From assembly GCA_033439265.1 (NCBI GenBank), contig JAVTVX010000004.1, positions 17,001,701 through 17,065,700 of the forward strand: DNA of 64,000 nt. The letters run 5' to 3'. A model generated the notes under the pieces. The model did not search any database, was not told where the DNA came from, and worked only from the letters and a program-made list of their open reading frames with translations. Shown here piece after piece: positions 2,796 through 63,506 of this stretch. A program made the position numbers and the translations under genes. Each line of letters starts with the position of its first letter. Position 1 is the stretch's first letter. The DNA is from Dillenia suffruticosa (lineage: Eukaryota > Streptophyta > Magnoliopsida > Dilleniales > Dilleniaceae).

Positions 2796-2883
2796 CTGTA
2801 ATATTTTTAAATTTGAACAATATTAGCTACTAACTCAAATTCTAAATACCCAACCCTAAGACTACAACCAACATAGCCATTGC
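2796..2883 (-). other. Intron-like segment in the leader part of the LTR (element A left)
   Basis: On the minus strand this 88-nt AT-rich stretch ends in TTACAG before GTTTTAAACC. The start reads GC rather than GT; the right LTR copy at 11071-11158 has GT at the same place (GTAACG). The equivalent site in elements D and E has no insert. Splicing is inferred from boundaries and presence/absence only. Confidence 0.45.
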
Positions 2884-7789: not shown

Positions 7790-8940
7790 ATATTGGAAGC
7801 AAGTAACTGGTACTCTACATGTTCCAAAGGCATTGTGGCTGCCACATCTACGGCAGAAAGGTTATCTCTGTGTAGTAGACTGTATAGAAACACAAGTGGC
7901 TGATTCCCCAAAACTCTGTGGTCGAGGCCCCAGCCCCGGTCTTACTGGTCTGAATCTAGAAGAACCTCCAGGACATCCAAAACCTCTACCCCTCTTCAAA
8001 GACAGTCCACCTTGTGACCCAGTTTTCTCTTCTGGTGACTCTCCCTCTGTCGAGCTTCAGCCCGGACGATCTCCTCTACCCGATATGCTGAATCAATCAC
8101 CTTTGACAGTGTAAAAGAGGGAATCACTATCATATACTTTCTGATGCTTAATTGGAAGCCATCTTCAAACTTGAACATCAACTGAGCTGGTATAGCCATG
8201 TCGGGGACAAAGGCCGCTAGTCGTCTAAGCTCAGCCTCGTACTCTGAAACTGACCTCGTTCCCTAGTGTAAGTGCAGGAACTCCGTCCTCATCCGGTCCT
8301 GCTGGAATGGGGTAAAGTACCTATGGTCGAACTCTCGTAAAAAGTCCTCCCACCGTAGGGTCTGTGTAGCACTGTCACGGATAGCCTTCCACCACGAGAG
8401 GGCATCTCCATCGAGGAGTCTCTCAGCAACTTTCAATCTGAGCTCCTCTGACAACCCCAAATCCGTAAGGATCCTACGAGTCCTGGATCCTGAAAAGTCT
8501 ATGCATTTGAGCTACCAAGACTCTTTCACCAATTAAGTGAACTCGTGGATGCGCCTCAAAACAGCCGACGTTTCATCGGTCGGAGTAGAAACAGAAGAAC
8601 CGACCACCGAAGAAGGAATCGGTGCTGTAGGTACAGGTATGGCCACAGGTGCGGTCGTTAAAGTCTGTAGTGGAGGTGGTGGCATCTGCGCCCCATATCT
8701 ACTGTACCACTCCTGCCACTGCCTCAAGGCATCGAGTCGTGGTGGAGAAATCTTAGCTTTACCAGCCGGTGGAGGTGATGGTGTTGGCACTCGAGAATGT
8801 GCGTGAGTAGAATAAGCACCCTCTGGTGCTCGTGGAGCCTCAAGTACCCTAGAAGCCTCAGGCACTGAGGGACTTTCTGGTGGTGCACCGTGCCTACCAC
8901 ATCTAGGCAGCATAATTCTGGAAAGATAGCACCGTTTCAT
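7790..8940 (-). pseudogene. Element A gag with zinc knuckles (broken)
   Basis: The start is taken at 8940, in the place equivalent to the E gag start. A proline- and alanine-rich N-terminus (8533-8940) is followed by the capsid-like block LRLKVAERLLDGDALSWW with WEDFLREF (8263-8460), then FKFEDGFQLSIRKY (7996-8199). Around 7800-7860 the strand encodes C-x2-C-x2-H-x5-C and a second knuckle in which a Cys and the His are replaced by Tyr. Gag forms the particle and binds RNA in the cytoplasm. Frame breaks separate the blocks. Confidence 0.8.
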
Positions 8941-9213: not shown

Positions 9214-11995
9214 TATCATGCCCCAAACCGGGTTGTTGAGCAGCCGCCCGTTGTCCTGAATGCGTGTTGTATTTTTACAGAAAATTGGGCAGAATCTCCC
9301 CATAAATTGGAAGTCTCCCATGTACAAATAAACCTGTTTAAACCTGTATAATTTAAAAATATCTTGTAAATAAAATAAAATGGTCATCCCGGCTTCACAA
9401 CAACCCACCAACCACAGCAGACATCCAGAATAATGTCAGGCTATGTAAATTACTAACAATCCTAGGCACAAACCTCTACTGTCATGCTCAACAAAAGCAT
9501 GAGCAGCCGCCACATTGAGTAGCTGCCACATTGAGCAGCCAAAATTTTATACAATTTACAATCATTTTACCCAAGTTAACATTTAAACACTACAATTTGC
9601 CTCAATACAAATGAAATATGAGAATTTCACAATTTAATGTACATAAATTATATAGTCAATCTCAAATAAATATACAGTCAACTATGGACCTCATGGTCAA
9701 GACCTCGCAGGGTCGAAAATAAAGTGCAGAGCTCATATCTCAACTTAATTTAAATCTCACCGTAAAAAAAACACTCAAATCCACAAACGAGCTACAAATT
9801 CCTCAAGAGTCGAAGCGTCACTCTAGCACAATAATGCTGTATGAGGAAGGAAAGAAGAGGGGTGAGTCTCAAGGAAGATACCTAGTAAGTGAGGGGACTA
9901 ATCTCAAGTACTAATAGTGTAGGTGAATATTGGAGTGTCGAATAATATCATTCATAACCAACAATTCAAATTTTGCAGTAAATCATGATATGTTCGTCAA
10001 AATGAACTCATTTAATCATTGACACGTTAACATACATATATGCATCCATTTAAAATCAAGTAGATCATAGAGTAAACTGAAAGGATCCTAGCAAAGGTCA
10101 ACCATGACCAAGGACAAGCACATCGGGGGTTTTATTATGTAAAAAGTTTTCAAGAGTAGCTCTCTACCCCAACGTTTGCCATGAGTTCACTGGGGCTAGT
10201 TCATCATTGTGTATAGGACCCCGCTCAGTGCTAGACGGTGGCGTCACATATGTCCTCCCCCTTACTTGGGTTCAACCGGCCGCGCTTATAGCCATTAGAA
10301 ATATGACGTATGCGGTTACCTCCAACAGAAGCATATCCGGGCAACCCGATGCCTCTATAAATGCCTTTCGTAGTTACAGAATTTATCAAATAATGTCATA
10401 TCATCATATCATCTCAATCTAGTAGGCATCCAACCCACATAGCCAAATCATCTCATCATATCCTCAAAACAATTCAAATCCGTGTGCTAATATATTTTAT
10501 CGAAATCATTTAAATTCAACAAACCAATGCAATGGTAGAATAGAAAACATTCCATTTCTCAAATCATGGCACAATTTCATTTCATTTCAAACATGGATGC
10601 ATAATCATAGAAAATATAAGTACGACACTCTGATAATCACAAAACAGATTTGAATTTCAATTGCATACGTCAAGCCAATGTATATCAAAAGCATATTTTA
10701 TTAAAAACATGATAAAATCATGTTTCACTATTTCATGCACGAGATTAGGTTCTTACTCACATTTTTGTGGAGGGTGGTCACTCCCTATTTCCAAAATCAA
10801 ACCAAATCGACTCCTCGAATCTCCAAGAAAGTCAACCTAATCAGATTATCACAATTGTTATCAAATTATTCTTAGGGTTTATCATCTTCCCTAAGTATGT
10901 ATAAATCTTTATTTCTCAATTTATAAATATACACCAATGTCATCTTAAAGGTATTGAAACCTAAATTTGATGAAATTTATTTCAAATATTGAAGAGATCG
11001 CATTTCTTTCACCTAGGGTTTTGCAAATCTCAGACCTAGCATTCGTTTGCCCGTCGAATTGGTTTAAAACCTGTAATATTTTCAAATTTGAACAATATTA
11101 GTAACTAACTCAAATTCTAAATACCCAACCCTAGAACTACAACCAACATAGCCGTTACCTGCAGTGAAGAAGCCGCGACCTAGGGTTTTTGTGGGGATTG
11201 CAGGTGAGCTCTCGAAGGAGACGGCTGGTCACGGGCTCGCGGGCAGTTGCAGGCTCGCAGGTTATCGCATGTTAGTGGGCTCGTGGGCTGGCGCGCTCAT
11301 AGGCTGGTGGGCTCGCGAGCTCATAGACTGGTCTGTAGTTGTGCGCCCGCAGGAGGTAGCGTGCTGTAGCGTGCTGTGGCGTGCTCGCGCTCGCGCGGGG
11401 AGGGTCGCGCTCACGCTGAGGAGATCACACAAGAGCGCGCTCGTGAGTAGGTGCGCTCCCTAGCAGGCGCACGCTCACGCTATGGAGAGCTGGTGTGGGG
11501 AAACGCATGCTGCGGCACGCTCGTGTAGGGTGGAGCAGCGGCGGCGGTCGCTGGAGGAAAGCGAGGCGGAGGAGCGGTGGAGGGGTGGCTCGTGGTAGTG
11601 GCGTGCGTAGACGATCACAGGGAAGTTCGATCTAGAGGGAGGGAGATCGCGAGAGATAGAGAGAGGGTGAGCAGCGGAGAGAGAGAGAAATATTGAGAGA
11701 GAGAAAAGGCAGAGAGGAGGGTCGGTGGCAATGACGGTGGGCGGCGGCGATGGTGGAAAGGGAGCGGCGGCCGCGGGAAGGGGAAGAGGTGGAGAGAGAG
11801 AGAGAAAGAGAGAGAGAAAGGAAAAGAGAAAGAGAGGAAGAGAGAGAGGGATTAGGGTTAAAAGCCGTATTCCAATTTTTTTGGGGGGTGCTGCATTTTT
11901 AGCCCTAATCCAATTTTGGGGGGTACTGCATTTTGCCTTAAAACGCAGCACTCCGCTAGATTTTTTTTTTTACTCTTATTATTATTATTATTATT

Positions 11996-13609: not shown

Positions 13610-13681
13610 GTAAATGACTTAGGGTTTTTGATTCGGATCTAAGTGTTTAGATCTAACAAAATAAAAATCTTGTTTTGATAG
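13610..13681 (+). other. Intron-like GT...AG segment in the solo LTR leader
   Basis: CACGCAG is followed by GTAAATGACT; 72 nt later TTTTGATAG precedes GAAACACTACAG. The segment is AT-rich between GC-rich neighbours, as plant introns are. Its site is the same as the GT...AG segments of A and G and the uninterrupted junctions in D and E. Confidence 0.5.
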
Positions 13682-13751
13682 GAAACACTACAGACCTTGG
13701 AGCGACCAAAGCGACAGTCGGACGAGACTCTGCGCTTCGAGAAAACCCTAG

Positions 13752-22139: not shown

Positions 22140-25100
22140 TGTAACACCGACGTCGCGGTGTCTGTAATTTAATTATATAGAGAAAAATTTTTTTTATTTA
22201 AATTGATTTTTGATTTTGGGGTATTTAAATTAAATTTTTAGTATGTTTTAATTTGCCAAATCTGCAAATCAAAATAAATCCCATTTTTACAAAAAATTTA
22301 AATTTTAGTGAAGTGTGGATGTGAAGACATATATATATATATATAAAAAGAGAAGTGAGAGAGGAGATGCTGCGTTTTGGAGTGAAACGCAGCACCTCCC
22401 AATTAGGGTTGTAAACCCAAACTTTATCTCCCTCTCTCTCTCTTTCTCTTTCTCTTTCTCTCTCTCCCTGACCCTTTACCTCCCGTGGCCGCCTTCTTCC
22501 TCCACCGCGATCGGTCGCTCGTCCCGCCACCTCTCTCCACCACGAGCAACCACCACCATCTTCTTCTCTCTCTACCTCAATCACGGTCTTTCTCTCACTG
22601 TTTCTCTCTCTCCACTGTTCACTCTCTCTCTATCTCTCTCGATTTCCCTCCTTCTCGATCGCCCTCCACCGCAAATCACCACCTTCCATTGTGAATCCGC
22701 CACCTTCTACCGTGATCCGCCACCACCGCGAGCGCACCCTAGCCGCTGCAGCTCCTCCCTCCTATGAGCGCGCTGCAGCACGATCCTCCCTACACGAGCA
22801 CGAGTACGCCACAGTGCGCGCATCCCCGCACGAGCGCGCCTGTTTGGGAACGCGCCTGCGCACGAGCATGCGCCTGCACCCGAGCGCGCTCCAGCCTACT
22901 AGCACGCAACCCACGAGCGCACGACTGTAGCCCAGCTCGTGAGTGCACGTGCCTGCCAACCCGCGAGCCCTCGAGCGTGCCAGCCCACGAGCCGACCACC
23001 CCGCGAACGTGCTAGCCCGCGAGCTGACCAACCCACGATAGTCCAAGAGCCCGCGCAGCCCGCGAGCCCACTGCGGCGGTGAAGCCCACTGTTGCCCGCA
23101 GCCCACATCTCGCGATAGCCGGTGACAGCCCGCGAGTCTCTGCGGAGCATTGTAGATTTTGGTGTAATTGAGGACACATTCGGACGAATGTCTGCGCTCC
23201 GAGAAAACCCTAGCTTAGAAAAAATTTCTTACCCATTTGATTTATTTGAATAAATGGTAGGGTTAAGTTGAGAAATGAGGAGAAATGGTTGGCATGCAGG
23301 TGCTGCGTGCCCTAGGTGCTGCTCACTGCACACAGGCACTGCGCGCCCTGCACACAAGCGCTGCGCGCCCTGCACACAGGCGCTGCGCACCCTGCACACA
23401 AACCCTGCACATAGGCGCTGCGTGCCCTGCACATAGACCCTGCACATGGGTACTATGTGCCCTGCAATGGGCGCTGCACGCTGCATAGAGGAGCACTGGG
23501 CTTTGGCCCTGTTTGCCCTTGGGTGCGAGCGAGAGATTGGATTGGTGTGAGCCCTGTGCGTGATTGGTCGAGTCCCAACACTTGAGTCTTGTAAACATGT
23601 TGTATGCATGAAGAAAATATGAGGAATTAGGGTAGGGTTCCAAAGGATTCAAACTACCTGATTTGCATACGTGTATTAGGAGTGATAGCCTATTTCCTAT
23701 AACTACGTAGGTTTGAAACTCGTTGATTTTTATATATATATACATCCATAAGTATTGGGTGCCTTGACTTAAGGGAATATTTTTCTTCGCTTCGTGATAT
23801 TATTGGGGAGAGTGTTATCCTTCCCCATACGGTGAGTGAGATTTATTTCAATGCCTTTGTTTAATATGGAAACCCTATTTTATAACATTTTGATAAATGA
23901 GCATGATTTGTCGTGTGCTTGAAATGTTTTGATTGGTTTTGGAACTGACTTTTTGTGAACCGTTGGAGTGTCCAAAAATTAGGTTGAATTATGAAAATTA
24001 TGCATCCATGTGGTTGAAATGTATAATGTGTCATTTTACGCTATATATTGCATTTGGTTTGTGAACCTGATTACGACATATTTTTTATATGATATTGATT
24101 TTGGTCTTGAGGGCTTTGGTATGTATTGTTCCGTAGCTACAAAGGACACTGTGAGAGGCGCTTGAGTGGCGTCCGGATATGCCTAGGCCTGGGGTATCCA
24201 CGTGTTGTCGTGATTTTATTAACGATACGATACTAACCAGGTTGAACCCGAAAAGGGGGAGGATTTGGATACTCTTTCCAACTCTAGCACCTGGATGAGG
24301 TCCGTCGCCAACGCCGGGGTAGAGAGCACTTTAAATAAATTTATATATAACACCCCCGGTATGTCTGTCATAGGTTGAGGTAGATCTCTGCCAGAACACT
24401 TTCGGGTGGCAGCTCTATGATTTTAATGACAATACTTTGGATGCATATTTGACTTGATAATGCGTGCAAATGATATATTGCTGAAATGAAAAGTATGATG
24501 ATTTGAAGTATGATTTGTATACTTACACTTTGACACTCCAGTTTCACAATTCTTATTAGACGATTACATTGACCCACTCACTCACTGAGTATTCTTTCCC
24601 TGAGTACTCACCCCTCATTTCCCTTTTTGTTTCAGAGATATTATTTGGCAAGGAGCGTTGCTTCTTGGACGCTTAGTATCATTGGGAGATCTAGTCTGAA
24701 TTTAAGGAGTTATTGTATATTTTCGCTATAATTTCGGGACTTAGAAATTGTATTGATGATGTATATGTATTTTGAGGTCTATAGATGATTATTGTATAAT
24801 TTTGGGATGATTGTACAAATATGGATATTTAAATTGTGAAATTCTCATGTCATTGCAAAACACTTACATTGAGGCAATTTCTATTCATTGTGTATGTTAC
24901 TTGAGAATGTGTCATATCCTAGAAGTGTATTTTAGGACCGCACGGTGCCACCTCTAAATCACTAGGGGGTAACTGGCGGCTGTTCATGCTTTTGACGAGA
25001 GCATGGCATTAGAGGTTTGTGGTTAGGACTATGAAAATTCGTTTTGTTAGTCTTGCGTTGTCCTGAAATGTGTGGCATGGATGTGTTTGTTTGATGTTGA

Positions 25101-25267: not shown

Positions 25268-25280
25268 TGGTATCAGAGCC
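25268..25280 (+). other. Primer binding site, initiator-Met tRNA (element E)
   Basis: TGGTATCAGAGCC, 7 nt after the LTR, a full match to the usual plant LTR-retrotransposon primer site. Confidence 0.95.
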
Positions 25281-25570
25281 TAGGTTGAGAGCTATGTAGG
25301 AAGAGAGTTTTAAAAACATTCCTGAGTGTGTTTGTGCTTAAAGTCCTCAATGCGTGAGAATTTCATATAGTCATGAAGTCCCAGTACATGATCATAGTTA
25401 TATGAGTTCATCCATTTTAGGGGGTTAAATATGGTTGGGTTTAACCTAACATCCTTTTTTTTTAGGATTCCATTCTTTGTGAGGGTAGTCAAGATGTGAC
25501 TAGTCCAAATTTCTTGAACCATGCCTATTCTTTGAACGATTCCTAATAAGGATCATTCTCTTTCAGAAGT

Positions 25571-26940
25571 ATGACGACTCGATGGCGCACCCATTTTGCC
25601 CCACCAGAGGAATTAGACGAGCTGGAGGATCGTTCCTCGACTTACGTGCCACCATGGGCACCTACTCAACCAGCTACTCATGCTGAGACTCCCGTACCCA
25701 CACTCGACGCCTTTCGACAGGTGTACGAGTGGTACGCTTCGCATGGGATCCAGATTCCACCCCCACCACCTCCTACAGTGGCACCTGCACCTGCCGCAGC
25801 ACTAGTTCCTTCAGCACCAGTTCCACCGCCGGTGGCCGGTCCTTCTATCTTGTCAGAGCCAAGTGAGACCATATCGGCTACTCTTAGACGAGTACATGAG
25901 TTGACTAAGTTGGTTAAGGAGGCCCATCATCTAGGGTGTACTGATTTCACAGGGCTTGGTGATGCTACGGTAACCAAGCATTGGATCAACCGCACCGACA
26001 AGATTTTGACCGATCTGGGGATTGGAGAGGAGCTCTGCTTGAAAGTGATACAGCGATTATTAGAATGAGAGGCCCTCTTATGGTGGGAGGCCCTCACTGA
26101 TGAGGTAACAGAGCCACTACGGTGGGATGACTTCCTTCGGGAGTTTAACCGCAGATTTTTCCCACTCTACCAGAGGACCGGATGAGGTCAGAGCTGGGAT
26201 GGCTTACACAGGGGTCCAGATCTGTCTCTGAGTATGAGGCAGACATGCGGAGACTTGCCGCATTTGTACCGAATCTGGCCACACCTCAGTATTTGTGCTT
26301 CAAATTCGAAGACAGTCTCTGGCTGAGGTGATAAACTCTACTCACCACGCGGAGGCTTTGGTCCACGCCGAGACTAGGCAAAGAGACAATAGAGAGCTGA
26401 AGAGAAAGAAAGAGAAGTCTCATTCTGCACAGAGCTACAAGAGGGGCAGGGGATCCAGTTCGCACAGAGACGGATTTGGATCTAGATCTTCTAATCTGGG
26501 ATGGGGACAGTACTCCCAGGGGTTCAGACAGCCTGCTCCGACTCACCCTGCACAGTACACTACTCAGCGGTATCCTTATTGTCGTAAGTGTAATAGGTCC
26601 CATTTGATAGGGGCTTGTTCAGTGTCGGTCACTTACTTCCACTATGGGAAGCCGAGGCATATAAGGAGTTTCTGCCTTGAGTTAGGACACGGAGGATAGA
26701 GTTCACAGAACCGCACTAGTACTCCTCATATGAGTCAGTAGGGGCAGCCTACTTGACCAGCATCTTCTACTCCCAAGGTGACCACCGGGAGTAACACAGT
26801 GCAGATCCAGGCACGACAGTAGCATAGGGCTTAGGCCCGGGTTTATGCCATGACCCAGGAGGACGCCCAAGCAAACCCCGACATCATCATGGGTACTCCT
26901 CCTTCTGATCCTGTAGAATAGGATCTCTATTCATATTTCA
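25571..26940 (+). pseudogene. Element E gag with zinc knuckles (broken)
   Basis: ATG at 25571 opens a frame starting MTTRWRTHFAPPEEL, with a Pro/Ala-rich part (residues about 60-100) and the capsid-like block that includes ILTDLGIGEELCLKVIQRLLE. A TGA at 26066 replaces a Gly codon just before a conserved ALLWWEA motif; the same frame continues with WDDFLREFNRRFF. A frame change follows near 26170-26290. The stretch 26295-26699 encodes a basic segment, then C-R-K-C-N-R-S-H-L-I-G-A-C (an intact knuckle), then a second knuckle whose first two Cys are Tyr. Gag packages the element RNA. Confidence 0.88.
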
Positions 26941-30565: not shown

Positions 30566-32503
30566 TGTAACACCAACACTGTGGTATCTGTAATTTAATT
30601 ATATAAAGAGAAATTTATTTATTTAAATTGATTTTTGATTTTGGAGTATTTAAATTAATTTTTTTTTTATGTTTTAATTTGCCGAATCTGCAAATTGAAG
30701 TAAATCTAGTTTTTACAAAAATTTAAATTTTAGTGAAGTATGGGTGTGAAGACATATATATAATAAAAAAAAGAGAAGAGAGAGAGGAGATGCTGCGTTT
30801 TGGAGTGAAACGTAGCACCTCCCAATTAGGGTTGGAAACCCTAACTATATCTCTCTCTCTCCCTCTCCCTCTCTCTCCCCGACCCTTAACCTCCCACGGC
30901 TGCCTTTTTCCTCTGCCATGATCGGTCGCTCGCCCTACCACCTCTCTCCACCAAGAGTAACCACCACCATCTTCTTCTCTCTCTACCTCACTCACGGTCT
31001 CTCTCTCACCGTTTCTTTCTCTCTCTCCACTGTTCACTCTCTCTCTATCTCTCGCGATCTCCCTCCCTCTCGATCGCCCTCCACCGCAAATCCACTACCT
31101 TCCATCGCGAATCTACCACCTTCCACCGCGATCCGCCACCACCGCGAGCGTACCCCAACCGCTGCAACTCCTCCCTCCCGTGAGCGTGCTGCAGCGCAAT
31201 CCTCCCTGCACGAGCGCAAACGCGCCACAGCGCGTGCTTCCTTGGGCGAGCGTGCCTGAGCACCAGCGCGCGCCTGCGCCCGAGGGTGCTCCAGCCCACT
31301 TGCGCGTAACCCGCGAGCGCACGACTGTAGCCCAACTCGCGAGCGCACGTGCCAGCCCGCGAGCCCACCAGCCCACAACAGTCCACGAGCCCGCATAGCC
31401 CACGAGCCCATTGCGGCCGCGAAGCCCACTGCGGCCTGTAGCCCGCAGCCCGTAGCCCGTGATAGCCCATGACGGCCCGCGACTCATTGCGGAGCATTGT
31501 AGATTTTGGAGTGATTGAGGAGACATTCGGATGAAGGTTTGCACTCCGAGAAAACCTTAGGTGAGACAGTGCTTTGGATACATATTTGATAGTGCGCCTG
31601 TCAAAGGTCGAGATAGACCTCTGCCAGAACACTTTCAACTGGCAGCTCTATGATTTTAATGACAGTGTTTTGGATACATATTTGACTTGATAATGCGAGC
31701 AAATGATATATTGTTGAAATGAAAAGCATGATTATTTGAAGTATGATTTGTATACTTACGCTTTGACACTCCAGTTTCACAATTCTTAGACGATTGCATT
31801 GACCCACTCACTCACTGAGTATTCTTTCCCTGAGTACTCACCCCTTATTTCCCTTCTTGTTTCAGAGATAGTATTTGTCAAAGAGCGTTGCTTCTTGGAC
31901 GCTTAGTATCATTGGGAGATATGGTCTGGATTTGAGAAGTTATTGTATATTTTCGCAACAATTTCATGAGTTAAAAATTGTATTGATGATGTATATGTAT
32001 TTTGAGGTCTATAGATGACCATTGTATAATTCTATGATGAATGTACAAATATGGATATTTAAATTATGAAACTCTCATGTCATTGCATAACACCTGCATT
32101 GAGACAATTTCTATTCATTGTGTATGTTACTTAGGAATGTGTCATATCCTAAAAGTGTATTTTAGGATCGCTTGGTATCACCTCTAAATCACAGGAGGGG
32201 CGATTGGCGGCTATTCATGCATTTGATGGGGGCATGGCAGTAGAGGTCTGTGATTAGGATTGTGAAAATTTGTTTTGTTTGCCTTGCGTTGTCCTAGATT
32301 GTGCGGTATGGATGTGTTGGTTTGATGTTGAGATTGGATTAATGTATTGTGTGGTCGGGTTGGCTCTATTGTATAGGTAGCAGGTTGATTGTTATATGGA
32401 AAACCTCCGATATGCGAGGAGGTTCTACCCGATTTTTTGTAAAAATACAGTTGGTATTCAGAACAACGGGCGGCTGCTCACGATCACAGTTTGGGGCGTG
32501 ACA
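30566..32503 (+). repeat. Element E 3' LTR, internally deleted (1938 bp)
   Basis: It follows the left LTR until CCTTAG-GTGAG at 31565 and resumes with sequence equal to left-LTR position about 24356 onward. About 1.15 kb is missing. At the join lies an extra copy of about 25 bp (31565-31589) of sequence found 96 bp downstream (31661-31685). Confidence 0.93.
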
Positions 32504-39235: not shown

Positions 39236-41782
39236 TGTAATACCCAAAAAAAAAAAGGGGGGGAAATTAAAATTAGGGTTTAAAGCCCTAATTCTTCTTC
39301 ATTTTCCTCTCTCTCTCTCTCTCTATCTTTCTCTCTCTCCCTCTCTCTCTCTCACTCCGTCTCTTCCTCTCCCGCTGCCGCCGCCAGCACCGTCGTTTGC
39401 CACCATCGCCACCGCACCCAGCCGCCGCCGCTCCTCCCTCCTCACGCGAGCGTGCTAGCCGCAGCGCCTTCCTCCTCCGCGCAGCGCGATCTCCCGCTGC
39501 CATCCTCCGCCGAGCGCAATCGCTTCACCACCACGAGTGCACCAGCGCATGCGACAGCACAGCGCGCGAGCCCAGCGCGAGCCAGCGCACGAGCCTAGTG
39601 CACGAGCCCAGCGCATGAGCCCAGCGCGAGCCCAGCGCCAACCCAGCGCCACCCCAGCGCCAGCCAGCGCACGAGCCAGCGCGCGAGCCCAGCGCAAGCA
39701 GTGCGCGATCCTCTGCACGAGCCCATGCGTGCCTCTGTACGCTCCTGCACGAGCGCCAGCGCACCCTTGCGCGCCTCTACACGAGCCCCTACGCGCCCCA
39801 GCGTGGCCCAGCACGGGCTCCCCTATGCCAGCGCGCCCTCCAGCACGCCCCAGCACGAGCACGAGCGCTCCAGCGCACGAGCGATCCAGCTCGCGAGTGC
39901 GAGCCCTAGCCACTGCGACCCAATCCAGCACGCGGCCCAGTCCGGCCCGCGGCCTACCAGACCCATCAGACCGGCAGGCCCACCAGGCGGCCAGCCCATC
40001 AGCCCGCCAGCCTGCGGCTCACGAGCCCGTGACGGCCCGTGACAGTCCGGAGCCTCTACGAAGGTTTTAGACCAAACCGACGGGCGAACGACAGCTAGGT
40101 CTGAAACCCGAGGAATTCTAGGTGAGAAAAACGCACTCACTTCACTGTGTAAATAAATTTTCCCTTATTAGGGTTTTATTTGATATAAAATTTGATGATT
40201 TAATTAGATTTGTCTTTTGGAGAGTCGTTGAAAAGTAGGGAGTGACCACCCTCTCTAGATAAGTGAGTGGGACTCTAACCTCTTGCATAAAATAGTAAAA
40301 TGTATTTTCTACCGCGTTTTCGATAAAACATGCTTTTGATATGCATTGATCTGACGTATGATATTGAATTTCAAAACCGTTTTGTGATTCTTGGAGTGTC
40401 TCGAATATGTTTACGATGACTATGCATCCATGGTATGAAATGAAACAATAATTGTGCCATTACTTGAAATTTTAAAATTTCCTTTTCTACCGTCGCATTG
40501 ATATGCCGTTTGAAATGATTCAATGAAACGTATTGGTACGCAGATTTGAAATGTTTTGATGAACTATGTGGGTTGGATGCCTACTAGTTATGCGATTATG
40601 TGATGTTACTTGTAGGACGTTGTGCCCTGGGACGTTGTGCCCTTGTGTTACTATGGGACGTTATGCCCTTGTGATATTATGATGATTCTGTAGCTACGAA
40701 GGGCGTTTGTAGAGGTACGGGTTGCCCGGATACGCTTCTGCAGGAGGTATACACAAACGTCATTTATTCTAAAGGCTATAGACGCGGCCGGTTGAACCCA
40801 CGTAGGGGGAGGACGTGTGTGACGCCACCATCTAGCACCGGGGGGTCCTATACACGTTAATGAGTTATCCCCAGCGAACTCATGGCCAACGTCAGGGTAG
40901 AGAGCGTTTTAAAGTCTATGCATAATAAAACCCCCGATACGCCTATCCTCGGTCACGGTTGACCTTTGCCAGGACCATTTTTGGTTCGCTCTGATGTTAC
41001 TTGATTTTAAATTGATGCATACTTGTTTGTTATCGTATGATTGATTTAATAAATTTTAAATTGCTAAACATATCATGTTTTGCCGCGAAAATGTAAATTT
41101 TGTTTCAAATGATATTATTTGACACTCCAAATTATTCACTCATGCTATTTATGCTTGATATTATCCCCCTCACTGACTGAATATCTTCCCATGATACTCA
41201 TCCCTCTCTTTTCCTTCCTCTGACAGGTTTATTGTGATAGAGCGACGTTACAGGCTCTAGAGCGGATTTGGTGTTCATGACGGTGAGATTTACTTTAAAT
41301 AGAAATATGAACTCTTAAATTAGTTTCGACCCTGCGAGGTTTTGACATTGAGATCCGTAGTTGGCCGTGTACTTATTTTGAGATGACTGTATAATTTAAC
41401 TCTCATATTTTCTTTGCATTGAGGCGATTGTATGTATTTGAGTGTTATTTGAGAAAATTATTGTATCTTTCATAAAATTTAGGTCCGCTCGGTGTGGCGG
41501 CTGTTCATGCTCAAATTGGACATGACAGTAGAGGTCTGTGGCTAGAACTGCTAGAAACTTGTAGTCTTGCGTTGTTCTGGATGCTGGTGGTGGTGTGTGT
41601 TGATTTTGGAGAGGCCGGGATGGCCATTTGTTTAAATTACAGGTTGATTTTGATTATACAGGTTTAATTATACACGGGAAACCTCCGATTTATAGGGAGG
41701 TTCTGCCCGATTTTCTGTAAAAAAACAACCGGCATCCAAGGGCAACGGGCGACTGTTCACGATCCCGGTTTGGGGCGTGACA
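39236..41782 (+). repeat. Element D 5' LTR
   Basis: TGTAATACCC, an A-run and G-run, an AATTAGGG/CCCTAATT inverted repeat (39271-39278 / 39286-39293), CT-rich tract (39300-39370), GC-rich part with repeated GCGCGAGCCCA-like words (39420-40060), conserved leader segment (40064-40121), then AT-rich sequence with GGGACGTTGTGCCC repeats near 40615-40672. Frames open over the GC-rich part exist on both strands. Confidence 0.93.
40064..40121 (+). other. Conserved leader segment, intronless junction (element D left LTR)
   Basis: CTACGAAG at 40056-40063 runs straight into GTTTTAGACCAAACCGACGG. In G the same two flanks are separated by a 100-nt GT...AG segment. The segment ends ATTCTAG before GTGAGA, a donor-like site at 40122. 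The right LTR shows the same junction at 46729/46730. Confidence 0.55.
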
Positions 41783-41802: not shown

Positions 41803-42107
41803 TCTAGGTTGAGCGCTATAGGAAGAAAATCTTGAAAATATTCCTGAGTGTGTTTGCGTTTAAAGTCCTCAATGCATGAAAGTTTCATACAGTCATTTAT
41901 ATCCCTGCATATGGTTTTAGGAATTGAGTTTATCTATTTTAAGGGGTTAGATACTAATTCTTATCTAACCTAGCATTTCTTCATTTTCAAAGAAGGAACC
42001 AATGGAGATGGTTCTTAAATTGATGATTTTATTCATTTTAGGGGGTTAGTTGTAACTAACCCTAATCATTGAACAATGCCTAATGAGAATTCTTATATTG
42101 CTGAACC

Positions 42108-43150
42108 ATGATGATTACATGGAGAGCTAGATATGTACCCCCTAATTCACTTAAAGAGAGTGAGGATACTTCCTCATTTCTGGCGCCCCTTTCGGTGCCG
42201 AAGAATACATCCTCAAGGTGTGTGTTTTCTCTAGCACCTTTTCAGCCGGCTATTATACCAACGTCTCCACCATTTACTCTTGATATTTTCGGGTAAGAGT
42301 ACGAGTGGTACACGGCATATGGGGTCCAGATGTCACCCCATCACCTTTGATAGCAATGTCGATATCTACGGCTGGGCTTATTTCTCCTACAGTAGTTCTT
42401 ACTCAAGCGGCACCAAATCGTCCATCGATGGCCGTTCTTCTTACAGTTTCCATCGTCCCCGAGATGAACCAATTAGTCACGGGAGCTCGACAGTTGGGAT
42501 GCACAGATTTTTAGACATGGTGATGCTATGGTAGCAAAGCACTGAGTTAACTGAATCCGACGGATCTTGATAGATCTAGGCTTGCGCGAGGAGTATAGTC
42601 TACGAGTAACTGAGAGACTATTCGATAAGGAAGCCCTCACTTGATGGGAGGCTATTTGCGATGAGGCTATAAGTCATTGCGGCAAAGCGATTTCCTAATG
42701 GAATTCGACCGTAGATATTTCACGGAGTTTTAGCGGGACCATATCCCTAGTGGTTATATCACTAGCCCTAGTGCCATGAGCTAGGCCACTGCTCAGCGGC
42801 CTTTTCTTTGCCGCATATGCGGCAAGCACCACGCTCGAATAAATATGTAGAGCACTTATTACATGCTTCCACTATGAGAAGCCGGGATATATCAGGAGTT
42901 TATGCCCTGATTTGTGACTTGGAGGCTAGTTGGCTTCGAGTCATCAGAATACACCACATGTAGGATAGCAGGGAATACCTGCGCATTCTAGTAACACTGC
43001 TCCACGGACTGCAGCCGGGAGCAATATAGTATTAGGTTTTCACGAGAGTAGTTGAGGGTGCAGGCCCTTGTGTATGCGATGACTCAGGAGAACGCTCTGG
43101 CGAACCCAAATATGATTGTGGGTAATCCTCCTGCGGATCCTTCCGTTTAG
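42108..43150 (+). pseudogene. Element D gag (broken)
   Basis: Frame from 42108 reads MMITWRARYVPPNSL, aligned with the E gag start. EWYTAYGVQM is read after a stop near 42295. Later pieces include LRRI.HEMNQLVTGARQLGCTDF-like sequence (42305-42514 in a shifted frame), LTWWEA-like near 42640 and a CRICGKHH zinc-knuckle remnant near 42810 that lacks its last Cys. Stops and frameshifts are frequent. Confidence 0.72.
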
Positions 43151-45866: not shown

Positions 45867-48334
45867 TGTTATACCCAAAAAAAAAAGGGGGGGAAAATAG
45901 GTTTGTCTGTAAAGTCCTAATTCTTCTTCATTTTCCCCTCTCTCTCTCTCTCTCTCTCGCACTCCGTCTCTTCCTCTCCCGCTGCCACCACCAGCACCAT
46001 CGCTTGGCACCATCGCCACCGCACCCAGCCGCCGCCGCTCCTCCCTCCTCACGCGAGCGCACTAGCCGCAACGCCTTCCTCCTCGGCGCAGCACGATCTC
46101 CCGCTGCCATCCTCCACCGAGCGCAATCGCTGCACTACCGCGAGTGCACCAGCGCACGCGACAGCGGCAGCGCGCGAGCCCAGCGCGAGCCAGCGCACGA
46201 GCCCAGCGCCAGCCCAGCGCCAGCCCAGCGCCAGCCCAGCGAGCGAGCACAGCGCGAGCCAGCGCACGAGCCCAGCGCGAGCTAGTGCGCGATCCTCTGC
46301 ACAAGCCCATGTGCGCCTCTGCAAGCTCCTGCATGAGTGCCAGCGCGCCCTTGCGTGCCTCTGCACGAGCCCCTGCGTGCCCCAACACGGGCTCCCCTGT
46401 GCCAGTGCGCCCTCCAGCACGCCCTCGAGCACGCCCTCGAGCACGCCCCAACACGAGCACAGCGCACTCCAACGCGCAATCCACTGCTCGAGCGTGCCCT
46501 AGCACGAGCGCGAGCGCTCCAGCGCCCGACCCACTGCACGAACACTCGATCTAGCTCGCGAGCGCGAGCCCTAGCCACTGCGGCCTAGTCCAGCACGCGG
46601 CCCAGTCCGGCCCGCGACCCACCAAACCCATCAGACCCGCAGGCCAACCAGGCGGCCAGCCCGTCAGCCAGCTATCCTGCCGCCCACGAGCCCGCGACGG
46701 CCCGTGACTGTGATTGAGCCTCTGCGAAGGTTTTAGACCAAACCGACGGGCGAACGACAACTAGGTCTGAAACCCGAGGAATTCTAGGTGAGAGAAGCGC
46801 ACTTACTTCACAATGTGAATAAATTTTCCCTTATTAGGGTTTTATTTGATATAAAATTTGATAATTTAATTAGGTTTGTCTTTTGGAAAGTCGTTGAAAA
46901 GTAGGGAGTGACCACCCTCCCTAGATAGGTGAGTGGGACTCTAATCTCTTGCATAAAATAGTAAAACGTGTTTTCTACCGTATTTTCGATAAAACATGCT
47001 TTTGATATGCATTGATCTGACGTATGATATTGAATTTCAAAACCGTTTTGTGATTATTGGAGTGTCTCGAAATATGTTTACGATGACTTTGCATCCATGG
47101 TTTGAAATGAAACAATAATTGTGCCATTACTTGAAATTTTAAAATTTCCTTTTCTACCGTCACATTGATATGCTGTTTGAAATGATTCGATGAAACGTAT
47201 TGGCACGCAGATTTGAAATGTTTTGATGAACTATGTGGGTTGGATGCCCACTAGTTATGCGATGATGTGATGTTACTTGTGGGACGTTGTGCCCTTGTGA
47301 TACTATGATGATTCCGTAGCTACGAAGGGCGTTTGTAGAAGTACGGGTTACCCGGATACGCTTCTGCAGGAGGTATCCGCAAACGTCATTTATTCTAAAG
47401 GCAATAGGTGCGGCCGGTTGAACCCAAGTAGGGAGAGAACGTGTGTGACGCCACCGTTTAGAACCGGGCGGGGTCCTATATACGTTGATGAGTTAGCCCC
47501 AGCGAACTCATAGCCAACGTCGGGGTAGAGAGCGTTTTAAAGTCTATGCATAATAAAACCCCTGATGCACCTGTCCTCGGTCACGGTTGACCTTTGCCAG
47601 GACCATTTTTGACTCACTCTGATGTTACTTGATTTTAAATGGATGCATACATGCTTGTCAAATGATATTATTTGACACTCCAAATTGTTCACTCATGCTA
47701 TTTATGCTTGATATTATCCCCCTCACTCACTGAATATCTTCCCATGATACTCATCCCTCTCTTTTCCTTCCTCAGACAGGTTTATTGTGATAGAGCGACG
47801 TTACAGGCTCTAGAGCGGATTTGGTGTTCACGACGATGAGATTTACTTTAAATAGAAATATGAACTCTTAAGTTAGTTTCGACCCTGCGAGATCTTGACA
47901 TTGAGATCCGTAGTTGGTCGTGTACTTATTTTGGGATGACTGGATAATTTAACTCTCATATTTTCTTTGCATTGAGGCGATTGTACGTATTTGAATGTTA
48001 CTTGGGAAAATTATTGTATCTTTCATAAAATTTAGATCCGCTCGGTGTGGCAGCTGTTCATACTCAAATTGGGTATGACAGTAAAGGTCTGTGGCTAAGA
48101 CTGCTAGAAACTTGTAGCCTTGCGTTGTTCTGAATGCTGGCTGTGGTGTGTGTTGATTTTGGAGAGGTCGGGATGACCATTTATTTAAATTACAGGTTGA
48201 TTTTGATTATACAGATTTAATTGTACACGGGAAACCTCCGATTTATGGGGAGGTTCTGTCCGATTTCTATAAAAATACAGTCGGCCTCCAAGGGCAACGG
48301 GTGGCTGTTTACGATCCCGGTTTGGGACGTGACA
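45867..48334 (+). repeat. Element D 3' LTR
   Basis: Colinear with the left LTR, 2468 bp, with one GGGACGTTGTGCCC unit instead of three and a missing stretch near 47655. Same intronless leader junction at 46729/46730 and same GTGAGA donor-like site near 46788. Confidence 0.93.
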
Positions 48335-60763: not shown

Positions 60764-60980
60764 AATTTAATTATCAACAATTTACTACTCATCTGGTATG
60801 ACTTGTTGGATTCACTACTAAATGACAATAATAATTATATTGACAACATTTTTGATGTTACACGATGATGACCTAGAGCAAAATTACCATATCATCTCTA
60901 ATTCTCATAAATCAAGATTGACAACTAAGGATCATGTGCACCATGTATTAGTATCCTATCATTTTAGGATTCATGGAAAA
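60764..60980. other. Short unassigned DNA between F and G
   Basis: 217 bp. Begins with the AATTT duplication of F and ends with GAAAA, the presumed target duplication of G, whose other copy is outside the window. Nothing else recognised. Confidence 0.4.
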
Positions 60981-63459
60981 TGTCACGCCCCGAACCGGGA
61001 TCGTGAACAGCTGCCCATTGCCCTGGATGCCGACTGTAATTTTACGAAAAATTAGACAGAAACTCCCCATAAATCAGAGATCTCCCATATACAATTTCAC
61101 CTATATATCAATATTCATCCTATAAAATAAACAAATGGTCATACTAATCTCTCCAAAATCAACCAATCCCACAACCAATATCTAGAATAATGCAGCTATG
61201 ACAACGAATTTCCACAATCCTAACCACAGACCTCTACTGTCATGCCCCCGTCAAAGGCATGGACAGCCGCCAGTCGCCCCTCCTATGATTTAGTGGAGGC
61301 ACCGAGCGATCCTAGAGTACACTTCTAAGACATGATACATTCCCAAGTACTTACACAATGAACCAGAAATGCCTCAATGCAATGTTATGCAATGACATGT
61401 CCATATTTATACAGTCATCCCAGAATTTTACAATGGTCGTCTATCGACCTCATAATACATATACATCACCAATACAATTGCTAACTCACGAAATTGCAGC
61501 AGAAATATATAATAACTCCTCAGATCCAGATCAATCTCCTAATGATACTGAGCGTCCTAAAAACAACGCTGCTTGCCAAATACTATCTCTGAAACAAGAA
61601 GGGAAATGAGGGGTGAGTACTCGGGGAAGAATACTTAGTGAGTGAGTGGGTCAATGCAATCGTCAAATATGGAGTGTGAAACTGGAGTATCAAAACACAA
61701 ATATACAAATCATATTTTAAATCATCATGCTTTTCATTTCAACAATATGTCATTTGTACGCATTATCAAGTCAAATATGCATTCAAAGCACTGTCATTAA
61801 AATCATAGAGCTACCAATCGAAAATGTCCTGACAGAGGTCTACTACGACCTATGACAGACGCACCGGGGTGTTATATGTAAGTTTATTTAAAGCGCTCTC
61901 TACCCCGGCGTTGACGACAAACCTCGTCCAGGTGCTAGACTTGAAGAGGATATCCAAATCCAAATCCAAATTCTCCCCCTTTCGGGTTCAATCTGGCTAG
62001 TACCGTGTCGATAATCAAATCACGACAACTCGTGGGATACCCCAGGCCTAGGCATATCCGGACGCCACCAAAGCGTCTCTCACGGTGTCCTTCGTAGCTA
62101 CGGAACAATACAATCCAAAACTCTCAAGGCTAAAATCAATATCGTAAAAAAGATGTGCAGAAATCAGGTTTACAAATCAAATGCAACATATAGCATAAAA
62201 TGGCACATTATACATTTCAACCACATGGATGCATAATTTCATAATTCAACACAGTTTTTGGACACTTCATCGGTTCACAAAAAAATTAATTTTTTAAAAC
62301 TAGTCAAAACATTTCAAACATACGACAAATCATACTCATTCATCAAAATGTTGTAAAACAAAGTTTACATATTAAACCAAAGTATTGAAATAAATCCCAC
62401 TCACAGTATACGGGAGGGTGGCCACTCCCTATTTTCAAAACCAATTCAAATCTGACCACTCAAACCTCTAATGAGATTTTCCTAATTAATCATCACAATT
62501 CGATATCAAATAAGGGTCTAGTTATGGATCTTCAATTTTCTTTCCAACCAAAACTAGCTAATTTGATAAAATTTATTCAAGAGTTAAATAGATTTCCTTT
62601 CTCTCACCTAGGGTTCCTCGGTTCTCGAATCTAGCTTTCGTTTGCCCATCGGTTTGGTCTAAAACCTGAATGTTTCCAAATTCGAAACAATTATGAGCAA
62701 TTTAAGTCCAATTACTAAAGAAATTCAAAACCCTAGTGCGAAAATCGAAACTTTGAGTCATTTACCTTCGCAGAGGCTCACGGACTGTCACGAGCTGTCG
62801 TGGGCTCGTGGGCTCGTGGGCCGCGGGCTGGCAGGTTGATGGGCTGGTGGGCTTGAGGGCCTAATGGGTCTGGTGGGCCTGGAGGGCTTGCGGGTCGGTA
62901 GTGGGCCGCAGGCCTGCGGGCTTGCGGCTGGCGGCCTGTGGGCAAGCGCGCAGTGGCTAGGGCTCATGCTCACGAGTTGGATTGAGCGCTCGCGCAGTGG
63001 GTCGCGCGCTGGAGCGCTCGCGCTCGTGCTGGGGTGCGCTCGAGCAATGGATTGCGCGTTGGAGCGCGCTGTGCTCACGCAGAGGGTTGCGCGCTGTGCT
63101 CGCGCAGGGCTTGCGCGCTGGCTCGCGCTGGGCTCGCGCGCTGGTGCACTCACGGCTGTGCAGCGATCGCGCTCGGCGGAGGATGGCAGCGGGAGATCGT
63201 GCTACGCGGAGGAGGAAGGCGCTGCGGCTAGCGCGCTCACGTGAGGAGGGAGGAGCAGCGGCGGCTGGGTGTGGTGGCGATGGTGGCGAGCGGCGGTGCT
63301 AGCGGCGGTAGCAGGAGAGGAAGAGATGGAGTGAGAGAGAGAGAGAGGGAAAGAGAGAGAGGGAGAGAGAGAGAAAGGAGAAAATTAGGGCTTTAAGCCC
63401 TAATTTAAAATTTATTTATTTATTTATTTATTTATTATTTTTTTTGTTTGGGTATTATA
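60981..63459 (-). repeat. Element G 3' LTR (2479 bp)
   Basis: TGTCACGCCCCG to GGTATTATA (terminal CA changed to TA). Minus-strand order: (TAAA)n-rich tract (63405-63445), a perfect 12-bp inverted repeat with AAATTAGGGCTT (63382-63393 / 63395-63406), GA-rich tract (63305-63380), GC-rich part (62780-63300), intron-like segment (62666-62765), conserved segment (62608-62665), donor-like GTGAGAG at 62607, then AT-rich sequence. Confidence 0.92.
62666..62765 (-). other. Intron-like GT...AG segment in the LTR leader (element G)
   Basis: On the minus strand CTGCGAAG is followed by GTAAATGACT and 100 nt later ACATTCAG precedes GTTTTAGACCAAACCGA. Element D has CTACGAAG joined directly to GTTTTAGACCAAACCGA. 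The segment is AT-rich with GC-rich sequence before it. This pair is the clearest presence/absence case. Confidence 0.6.
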
Positions 63460-63482
63460 TTTTATAACCCCCTAAAAACAAG
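63460..63482 (-). other. Polypurine tract of element G
   Basis: The reverse complement reads TTTTTAGGGGGTTATAAAA up to the LTR start. Confidence 0.72.
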
Positions 63483-63506
63483 TCTCGTCATCGAGACTAA
63501 AAGAAA

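Follow-up and report, generated by a model that had tools for sequence, protein, structure and literature searches.

The long terminal repeats (LTRs) of a group of retrotransposons in Dillenia suffruticosa carry in their 5′ leader a short GT...AG segment that is very probably a functional spliceosomal intron, and that has been lost from some lineages, in all likelihood through reverse transcription of spliced element RNA. We studied these elements in a stretch of 64,000 nucleotides (GenBank assembly GCA_033439265.1, contig JAVTVX010000004.1, C4:17001701-17065700; hereafter the window), which contains many related LTR elements, and compared them with copies found elsewhere in the 596-Mb assembly of 37 contigs, the scope of all genome-wide searches reported here. 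Five families are distinguished, represented in the window by elements A, D, E and G and by a solo LTR. We infer spliceosomal splicing from the exact ends of the segment and from their recurrence: leaders of the G/D and A types, and of the solo type as judged from a 26-letter pattern, occur in two length states that share the same exact ends. A first-pass annotation of the window had proposed an intron in the LTR leader that was removed when spliced RNA was reverse transcribed, and this two-state pattern supports that proposal.

Leader intron 1 in the window

On the minus strand, G reads CTGCGAAG, then 100 nt (62765-62666) running GTAAATGACT...ACATTCAG, and then GTTTTAGACC. The corresponding features of the intron-bearing and intronless leaders in the window are as follows.

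62766..63459, minus strand: beginning of the G LTR (approximate), with the GC-rich exon 1
62666..62765, minus strand: leader intron 1 of G (3′ LTR), 100 nt, GT...AG, branch-point-like CTCAT from -32
62608..62665, minus strand: exon 2 of the G leader (GTTTTAGACC...CCCTAG)
11071..11158, minus strand: leader intron 1 of the A 5′ LTR, 88 nt, GTAACGG...TTACAG, CTAAT from -31
2796..2883, minus strand: leader intron 1 of the A 3′ LTR, 88 nt, donor GC in place of GT (2882-2883)
11013..11070, minus strand: exon 2 of the A leader; second donor from 11012
13610..13681, plus strand: leader intron 1 of the solo LTR, 72 nt, GTAAATGACT...TTGATAG, CTAAC from -29
13682..13751, plus strand: exon 2 of the solo LTR; second donor GTAAGG from 13752
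40063..40064, plus strand: intronless junction of the D 5′ LTR, GAAG joined to GTTTTAGACC
46729..46730, plus strand: intronless junction of the D 3′ LTR, GAAG joined to GTTTTAGACC
40064..40121, plus strand: exon 2 of D; second donor GTGAGA from 40122

The introns are composed of 69-72% A+T and 39-41% T (69% A+T in G), compared with 28-37% A+T and 8-17% T in the last 100 nt of exon 1. The plant branch-point pattern CTNAY occurs exactly once in each of the four window introns, starting at -29 to -32; all four are T-rich relative to the exons and have a branch-point-like motif 20-45 nt before the acceptor.

The boundaries and lengths given by the first-pass annotation for G and the solo LTR, the direct join in both LTRs of D, and the contrast between an AT-rich segment and its GC-rich surroundings are all borne out, as are the coordinates in both LTRs of A, where the donor of the 3′ LTR reads GC. 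The segment had also been described as cleanly absent from E. Neither LTR of E has it, but the junctions (CTGCGGAG/CATTGTAG in the 5′ LTR and TTGCGGAG/CATTGTAG in the 3′ LTR) are not identical, letter for letter, to what an intron-bearing family would give once spliced. The intron is cleanly absent from D; for E, clean absence is only plausible.

Two length states across the genome

To describe the length spectrum we used CTGCGAAG and GACCAAACCGACGGG as anchors and varied the length of the gap between them. With 0-30 nt between the anchors there were 14 matches, all 14 with GTTTTA in between, which is the exact splice product. With 88-118 nt there were 185 matches genome-wide, and among the matches listed the whole stretches measured 126-131 nt, with segments of ~97-102 nt. 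The intermediate range of 32-92 nt gave no match anywhere in the genome. Frequencies can be compared only across these fixed-anchor patterns (185, 14 and 0). The exact 21-letter intronless junction pattern matched 32 times genome-wide, and reversed control patterns gave no matches where the real ones gave 32, 185, 14 and, for the A-type and solo-type patterns described below, 126 and 21.

We then aligned 58 fetched loci of the G/D type, 34 intronless and 24 intron-bearing; as these loci came from queries with and without the intron, the ratio of 34 to 24 is not a frequency. All 34 intronless loci are joined at the identical point, point mutations aside, and the 24 intron-bearing copies hold 99-100 nt, with GT kept in 22 and AG in all of them. 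Among 30 A-type loci counted by eye, GT is kept in 29 (L039 reads GC) and AG in 26 (altered in L045, L047, L058 and L066). The GT...AG ends are therefore preserved in many copies, and the alignment of genomic copies that the first-pass annotation had named as a test of its proposal returned exact ends.

Copies that lack exactly the GT...AG segment are also found with A-type leaders and, by pattern, with solo-type leaders. The joined form of the A-type leader gave 126 matches genome-wide at up to 3 mismatches, a mixture of intronless junctions and intron-bearing acceptors, and 31 of the matches listed had at most 2 mismatches. Ten of these were fetched. The intron is present in one (L098), and the other nine have exact intronless junctions flanked on either side by A-type exons. 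By eye, the intronless A-type copies fall into three subtypes (L091/L099/L100, L092-L094 and L095-L097), with L093 and L094 perhaps forming the LTR pair of a single element. The joined 26 letters of the solo-type leader matched 21 times genome-wide at up to 3 mismatches, three times exactly, with no match for the control; from this pattern, exact loss probably also occurred with solo-type exons.

Solo-type matches fall into two leader length classes (~236-241 and 246-249 bases matched), with copies 94-99% identical, and the solo family may have an intron-length polymorphism.

Agreement between paired LTRs

Intron state was typed at 183 places, 53 without and 130 with the intron; the intron-bearing set was drawn from among the matches listed of the 185, and unfetched matches to the intronless query were typed as intronless since the match spans the junction. 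Neighbouring places on one strand, 4.5-11 kb from each other, formed 23 pairs with the intron in both (some belonging to a tandem array on C16, described below), 12 pairs without it in either and one mixed pair. The members of the mixed pair are 86.5% identical over 325 positions and have different nearest relatives, and we therefore regard them as two elements. Presumed LTR pairs with an intronless member thus lack the intron in both LTRs in 12 of 12 cases, and the change of intron state precedes insertion. The first-pass annotation had read loss from both LTRs at once as a sign of splicing. Joint loss is indeed what we observe, but any change made before or during reverse transcription enters both LTRs, so that this agreement alone is not proof of splicing.

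Splicing, deletion and gain as sources of the two states

Several results weigh against loss through splicing, or against a simple history of such losses. The splice-site letters themselves provide microhomology at the segment ends, with AGGT in G (4 letters), CAGGT in A (5) and AGG in the solo LTR (3), so that a DNA deletion could yield the same product. The alignment of the D clade (21 copies) contains a 26-nt deletion common to 4 copies and a 41-nt one common to 3, and recurrent or inherited deletions therefore occur elsewhere in these LTRs. The solo intron has GTAAATGACT in common with G, but does not align significantly with either G (z of 1.2) or A (z of 0.6), and E is not tied to any intron-bearing relative, as the single gapped pattern tried for intron-bearing E-type copies gave no match genome-wide. 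The tree of upstream flanks needs only 4 state changes, of which 2 are forced, and among the 13 intronless copies of the G clade, 9 have D and 4 have intron-bearing G as their best-scoring upstream match when their own group is left aside. Lastly, retention of the intron in most copies needs the extra assumption that genome RNA is mostly unspliced.

The microhomology and the shared deletions in D-type LTRs raise the alternative that the segment was deleted in DNA, or by slippage of reverse transcriptase, between the short direct repeat AGG(T), with the GT/AG appearance as a by-product. Pairs of direct repeats of at least 4 letters, spaced 50-150 nt apart, are abundant in the 272-300 nt around the segment (55 in G, 58 in A and 39 in the solo LTR); the end pair of the solo LTR falls outside this set, and that of G falls outside the 14 pairs of at least 5 letters. 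Deletion therefore predicts many other products from these competing pairs, yet the genome-wide search gave no copy that retains 32-92 nt. In the G-clade alignment (35 copies, 1522 columns), the segment is the only deletion of at least 20 nt present in more than 3 copies (12 copies). Deletion also leaves the branch-point-like motifs and the base composition unexplained, and we consider it highly improbable.

RNA structure was rejected as the cause of the segment, the G stretch having an only mildly stable fold (z of -1.88, with 10 of 200 shuffles as good). A search of positions 60900-63500 against Rfam returned no match at gathering score.

The introns of G and A are homologous over their full length (z of 6.0, equalled in 0 of 1000 dinucleotide shuffles, splice-site letters excluded). 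This homology argues that absence of the intron is a loss and not a gain, and that the G/A leader had the intron before the families split. The opposite polarity would have an introner-like segment gained, with a 4-nt target duplication, by LTRs that were originally intronless. The flanking AGGT could be such a target-site duplication, and counts of changes on a tree cannot separate gain from loss; the segment was not searched for elsewhere as a mobile element. Against this, homologous introns at the same place in different families would require one gain before the split followed by the same losses, and intron-bearing copies outnumber intronless ones between the same anchors (185 versus 14). 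Gain accordingly appears to us exceedingly improbable, and loss through spliced RNA remains the preferred reading.

Number of loss events

The tree of downstream flanks, built from 62 rows (56 of the G/D type and, as outgroup, six of the A type), has 6 state changes (5-7 across bootstraps, which had not settled), of which 4-5 are forced by starred branches. A first tree of 66 rows, which included two long rows since dropped (L072 and L031) and more A rows, had 7 changes. We do not claim six independent losses, given that the upstream tree has only 4 changes. Downstream of the junction, all 13 intronless copies of the G clade are far closer to G than to D. Upstream matches of these copies to D are clearest in L085 (95.4% to D versus 89.8% to intron-bearing G) and L034 (93.3% versus 89.6%). 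The conflict between the flank trees and the upstream matches to D make recombination among G/D copies likely, and leave the number of losses within G/D uncertain.

One or a few losses may therefore have been spread by recombination between co-packaged RNAs or by gene conversion, as an alternative to repeated splicing. This alternative draws on the discordant flank trees, on the 9 of 13 upstream flanks that match D best and on the mosaic-like nature of the LTRs, and we regard it as a real possibility, albeit not the favoured one. It bears on the number of events and not on splicing as their cause, and it does not account for the intronless A-type copies, which show A-type letters in the exons at either side of the junction; the solo-type copies, by pattern, likewise show letters of their own type. 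Since recombination cannot explain the A-type losses, and probably not the solo-type ones, separate loss events number at least two and probably three.

A predicted second leader intron

Exon 2 ends in a second donor-like site, which the first-pass annotation did not mention. It reads C(T)TAG/GTGAGA in G, A and D, with GTAAGG in the solo LTR and GTGAGA in the 3′ LTR of E, and its AG/GT is intact in 78 of 88 loci of the G/D and A types. A candidate acceptor of textbook form lies immediately ahead of gag in three of the families. Positions are as follows.

62602..62607, minus strand: second donor-like site of the G leader (CCCTAG/GTGAGA), predicted start of intron 2
31555..31566, plus strand: second donor in the E 3′ LTR (CCTTAG/GTGAGA)
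23208..23219, plus strand: same donor site in the E 5′ LTR, changed (CCCTAG/CTTAGA; CT for GT)
8918..8930, minus strand: predicted intron-2 acceptor of A (GCTATCTTTCCAG/AATTATG); gag ATG at 8913-8911; CTAAT at 8943-8939
25556..25566, plus strand: predicted intron-2 acceptor of E (TTCTCTTTCAG/AAGTATG); gag ATG at 25571; CTAAT at 25543-25547
42097..42110, plus strand: D site at the place of the pre-gag acceptor of A, G and E; reads ATTGCTGAACCATG, no CAG; gag-like frame from ATG 42108
25268..25279, plus strand: primer binding site (PBS)-like TGGTATCAGAGC of E, within predicted intron 2
41937, 42036, 25415 and 8991, and in L101, L102, L103, L104 and L106: TTTTA(A/G)GGGG-like motif between PBS and gag

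Four nucleotides ahead of the gag ATG, E reads TTCTCTTTCAG, A reads TATCTTTCCAG, and the 5′ side of G (L101) and L106 read TTCTCTTGCAG. CTAAT stands ~20-22 nt ahead of the pre-gag AG in A and E; L101 and L106 showed no CTNAY there, and A-type L103 has CAT for CAG at the acceptor. The distance from the second donor to the pre-gag acceptor is 1953 nt in G, 2095 nt in A and 2353 nt in E, with the PBS inside. In the first 1500 nt of LTR body after the second donor there are 35-55 ATGs, compared with 29-33 predicted from composition. A depletion of ATGs in exon 1 was considered and rejected, as counts of 1-12 are near the 5.1-11.1 predicted from composition, except in G (1 versus 5.1).

The pre-gag acceptor is not present in every family that keeps the gag start. 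D, L104, L105 and solo-type L102 have GCTG or GCGG at this site and a gag-like frame from the same ATG, so that the acceptor is a feature of three of the five families (A, E and G), and the D- and solo-type elements weaken the case for intron 2. The idea that these are gag-less partners that lost the acceptor together with gag is ruled out by the gag-like frames of D, L102, L104 and L105; in D, 62 codons are open from 42108, and the gag of E matches D at 3.7e-19, in three pieces and from residue 1. The TTTTA(A/G)GGGG-like site, found 73-81 and/or 159-175 nt ahead of the gag ATG in 8 of 9 stretches read, could be an alternative acceptor or have another role.

The gag of D- and solo-type elements starts MTITW/MTSTW..., as opposed to MPPR/MLPR... 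in A and G, and their degenerate pre-gag site likewise sets them apart from A and G, though D resembles A in features of its LTR body and leader.

We tentatively suggest that the host spliceosome separates translation from replication in these elements by joining the second LTR donor to an acceptor between PBS and gag, a proposal that we hold to be possible rather than probable. In A, E and G the acceptor would be the one 4 nt ahead of the ATG; in D- and solo-type elements it might be the TTTTAG/GGGG site. A gag-pol mRNA spliced at intron 2 would lose the PBS and the ATG-rich LTR body and could not be reverse transcribed, and the genome RNA would be the RNA that keeps the intron-2 stretch, with or without intron 1. 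As RNA spliced at intron 2 would have no PBS, loss of intron 2 should leave no trace in the genome, whereas loss of intron 1 would be heritable. A genome-wide search for intron 2 losses, covering the pre-gag acceptors of the A and G types, gave no match at up to 2 mismatches (the reversed control gave 1). This fits the prediction, but it equally fits an intron 2 that is never spliced.

Proposed mechanism and significance

Transcription would begin near the 5′ end of the LTR, and the leader RNA would consist of the GC-rich exon 1, then an intron 1 of 72-102 nt, an exon 2 of 58-70 nt and, up to the PBS, the remaining long part of the LTR. Most reverse-transcribed genome RNA would retain intron 1, in keeping with its presence in most anchor-matched copies (185 versus 14). 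An occasional RNA spliced at intron 1 and still holding its PBS would be packaged and copied. During LTR replication, the 5′ leader is copied into minus-strand strong-stop DNA, whose sequence comes to stand in each of the two LTRs, and a new insertion from a spliced template would have two intronless LTRs. Each of these RNA steps is proposed from genomic copies. The intronless D clade has multiplied (21 rows in the flank tree), and intronless copies can thus be fertile. In plants, introns in the leader can enhance expression, according to published abstracts.

An intron in the LTR leader makes the genome a record of the RNAs that were reverse transcribed, in which each new intronless lineage marks a spliced template, and intronless lineages provide a natural, reporter-free count of spliced RNA entering replication. 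The second intron, if real, would offer a simple way of keeping mRNA out of reverse transcription, and would answer how gag is translated from a leader of 2-3 kb rich in ATGs, a puzzle stated for the soybean element Diaspora in 2005 (PMC1142308).

Elements and families

The LTRs start near TGTAA(T/C)ACC and in most copies end in (G)GGCGTGACA, followed by the PBS-like TGGTATCAGAGC or a near variant; the copy of TGGTATCAGAGC in E we take to be its PBS. Open reading frames of E match the domains RT_RNaseH (2.1e-30), Integrase_H2C2 (8.8e-10) and SH3_Tf2-1 (1.5e-23), with a match to rve (1.8e-6) below the curated cut-off. By coordinates, RNaseH precedes integrase, the Ty3/gypsy order, and the elements combine LTRs, a PBS-like site and reverse transcriptase-RNaseH ahead of integrase, as expected of Ty3/gypsy; they may resemble the Tekay/Del sub-lineage. 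The window LTR of G is its 3′ LTR, the 5′ LTR lying ~8 kb further on (C4:17072202), and both (L001 and L084) have the 100-nt segment.

The LTRs are mosaic-like. The body of the G LTR is 83% identical to that of E while its leader is D-like, and the D body matches the A body (regions compared: 62409-61203 in G, 23827-25043 in E, 40675-41782 in D and 950-2112 in A); modules may have been exchanged among LTRs near the end of exon 2. Near the LTR start (39240-39330 and 63360-63459) there are (A)GGGTTTAAAGCCCTAA / AGGGCTTAAAGCCCTAA motifs followed by CT tracts, reminiscent of plant telo-box/TOP-type promoters. On C16, three G-type intron-bearing LTR matches near 16.195, 16.200 and 16.205 Mb, spaced 5104 bp apart and with the same displayed letters, form a tandem array. 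Four matches with identical A-type joined letters near 10.39, 10.83, 11.28 and 11.73 Mb of the same contig, spaced ~440-454 kb apart, are perhaps large segmental duplications.

Comparison with known systems

Several retroelements have introns or spliced transcripts. The intron of the plant element Ogre is reported to be internal and not in the LTR, spliced transcripts of rice centromeric elements are a further lead, and Penelope-like elements are said to have an intron in the terminal repeat. A search of mostly open-licence literature turned up no account of an intron that lies entirely within an LTR and is also lost from genomic copies, and as far as that literature goes the first-pass annotation was right to call introns inside LTRs unusual. 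Penelope-like elements resemble the present ones in carrying and keeping introns (PMC3846280), but belong to another class of retroelement with another mode of replication. In the ta-TRIM elements of tapeworms, transcripts started in the LTR are cis-spliced, some of them within the element, as would be the case here; the passages seen make no mention of genomic copies from which an LTR intron has been precisely lost (PMC4558846).

Foamy virus likewise has its major splice donor in the LTR, where binding of U1 suppresses polyadenylation in the 5′ LTR (PMC3694450), a possible further role for the second donor described here. It is, however, a retrovirus, and the abstract mentions neither an intron wholly inside the LTR nor genomic loss (PMC3694450).

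Among plants, a review states that LTR elements generally have no introns, and that Ogre and EVADE are plant LTR retrotransposons with functional introns and separate RNA forms (PMC12786077); in EVADE, unlike here, splicing concerns gag/protease. For Diaspora, splice donors were predicted in the LTR 1400-2200 bp upstream of gag-pol, with predicted acceptors flanking the start codon, and the authors state that no intron upstream of gag had been reported (PMC1142308). Those sites are predictions only, whereas the genomic copies described here bear the mark that splicing of intron 1 would be expected to leave. The nearest plant biology is that of BARE1/BARE2 of barley, LTR retrotransposons with a 104-nt facultative intron that is U-rich relative to the exons, as the T-rich introns here are, and with separate RNA pools for translation and replication (PMC3735527). 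The BARE intron is located at the gag-pr border and not in the LTR, and its spliced form was not detected in the genome, as amplification from genomic DNA gave no smaller product (PMC3735527).

The nearest mechanism is that of the SpIREs of human L1, in which splicing removes a GT/AG segment of the 5′ untranslated region from element RNA before that RNA is retrotransposed, the main junction being found in 116 of 6,609 annotated full-length L1PA1-L1PA6 copies (PMC5860796). L1 has no LTRs, however, and SpIREs are reported to be generally dead ends, whereas the present segment belongs to an LTR leader, and a clade without it has multiplied.

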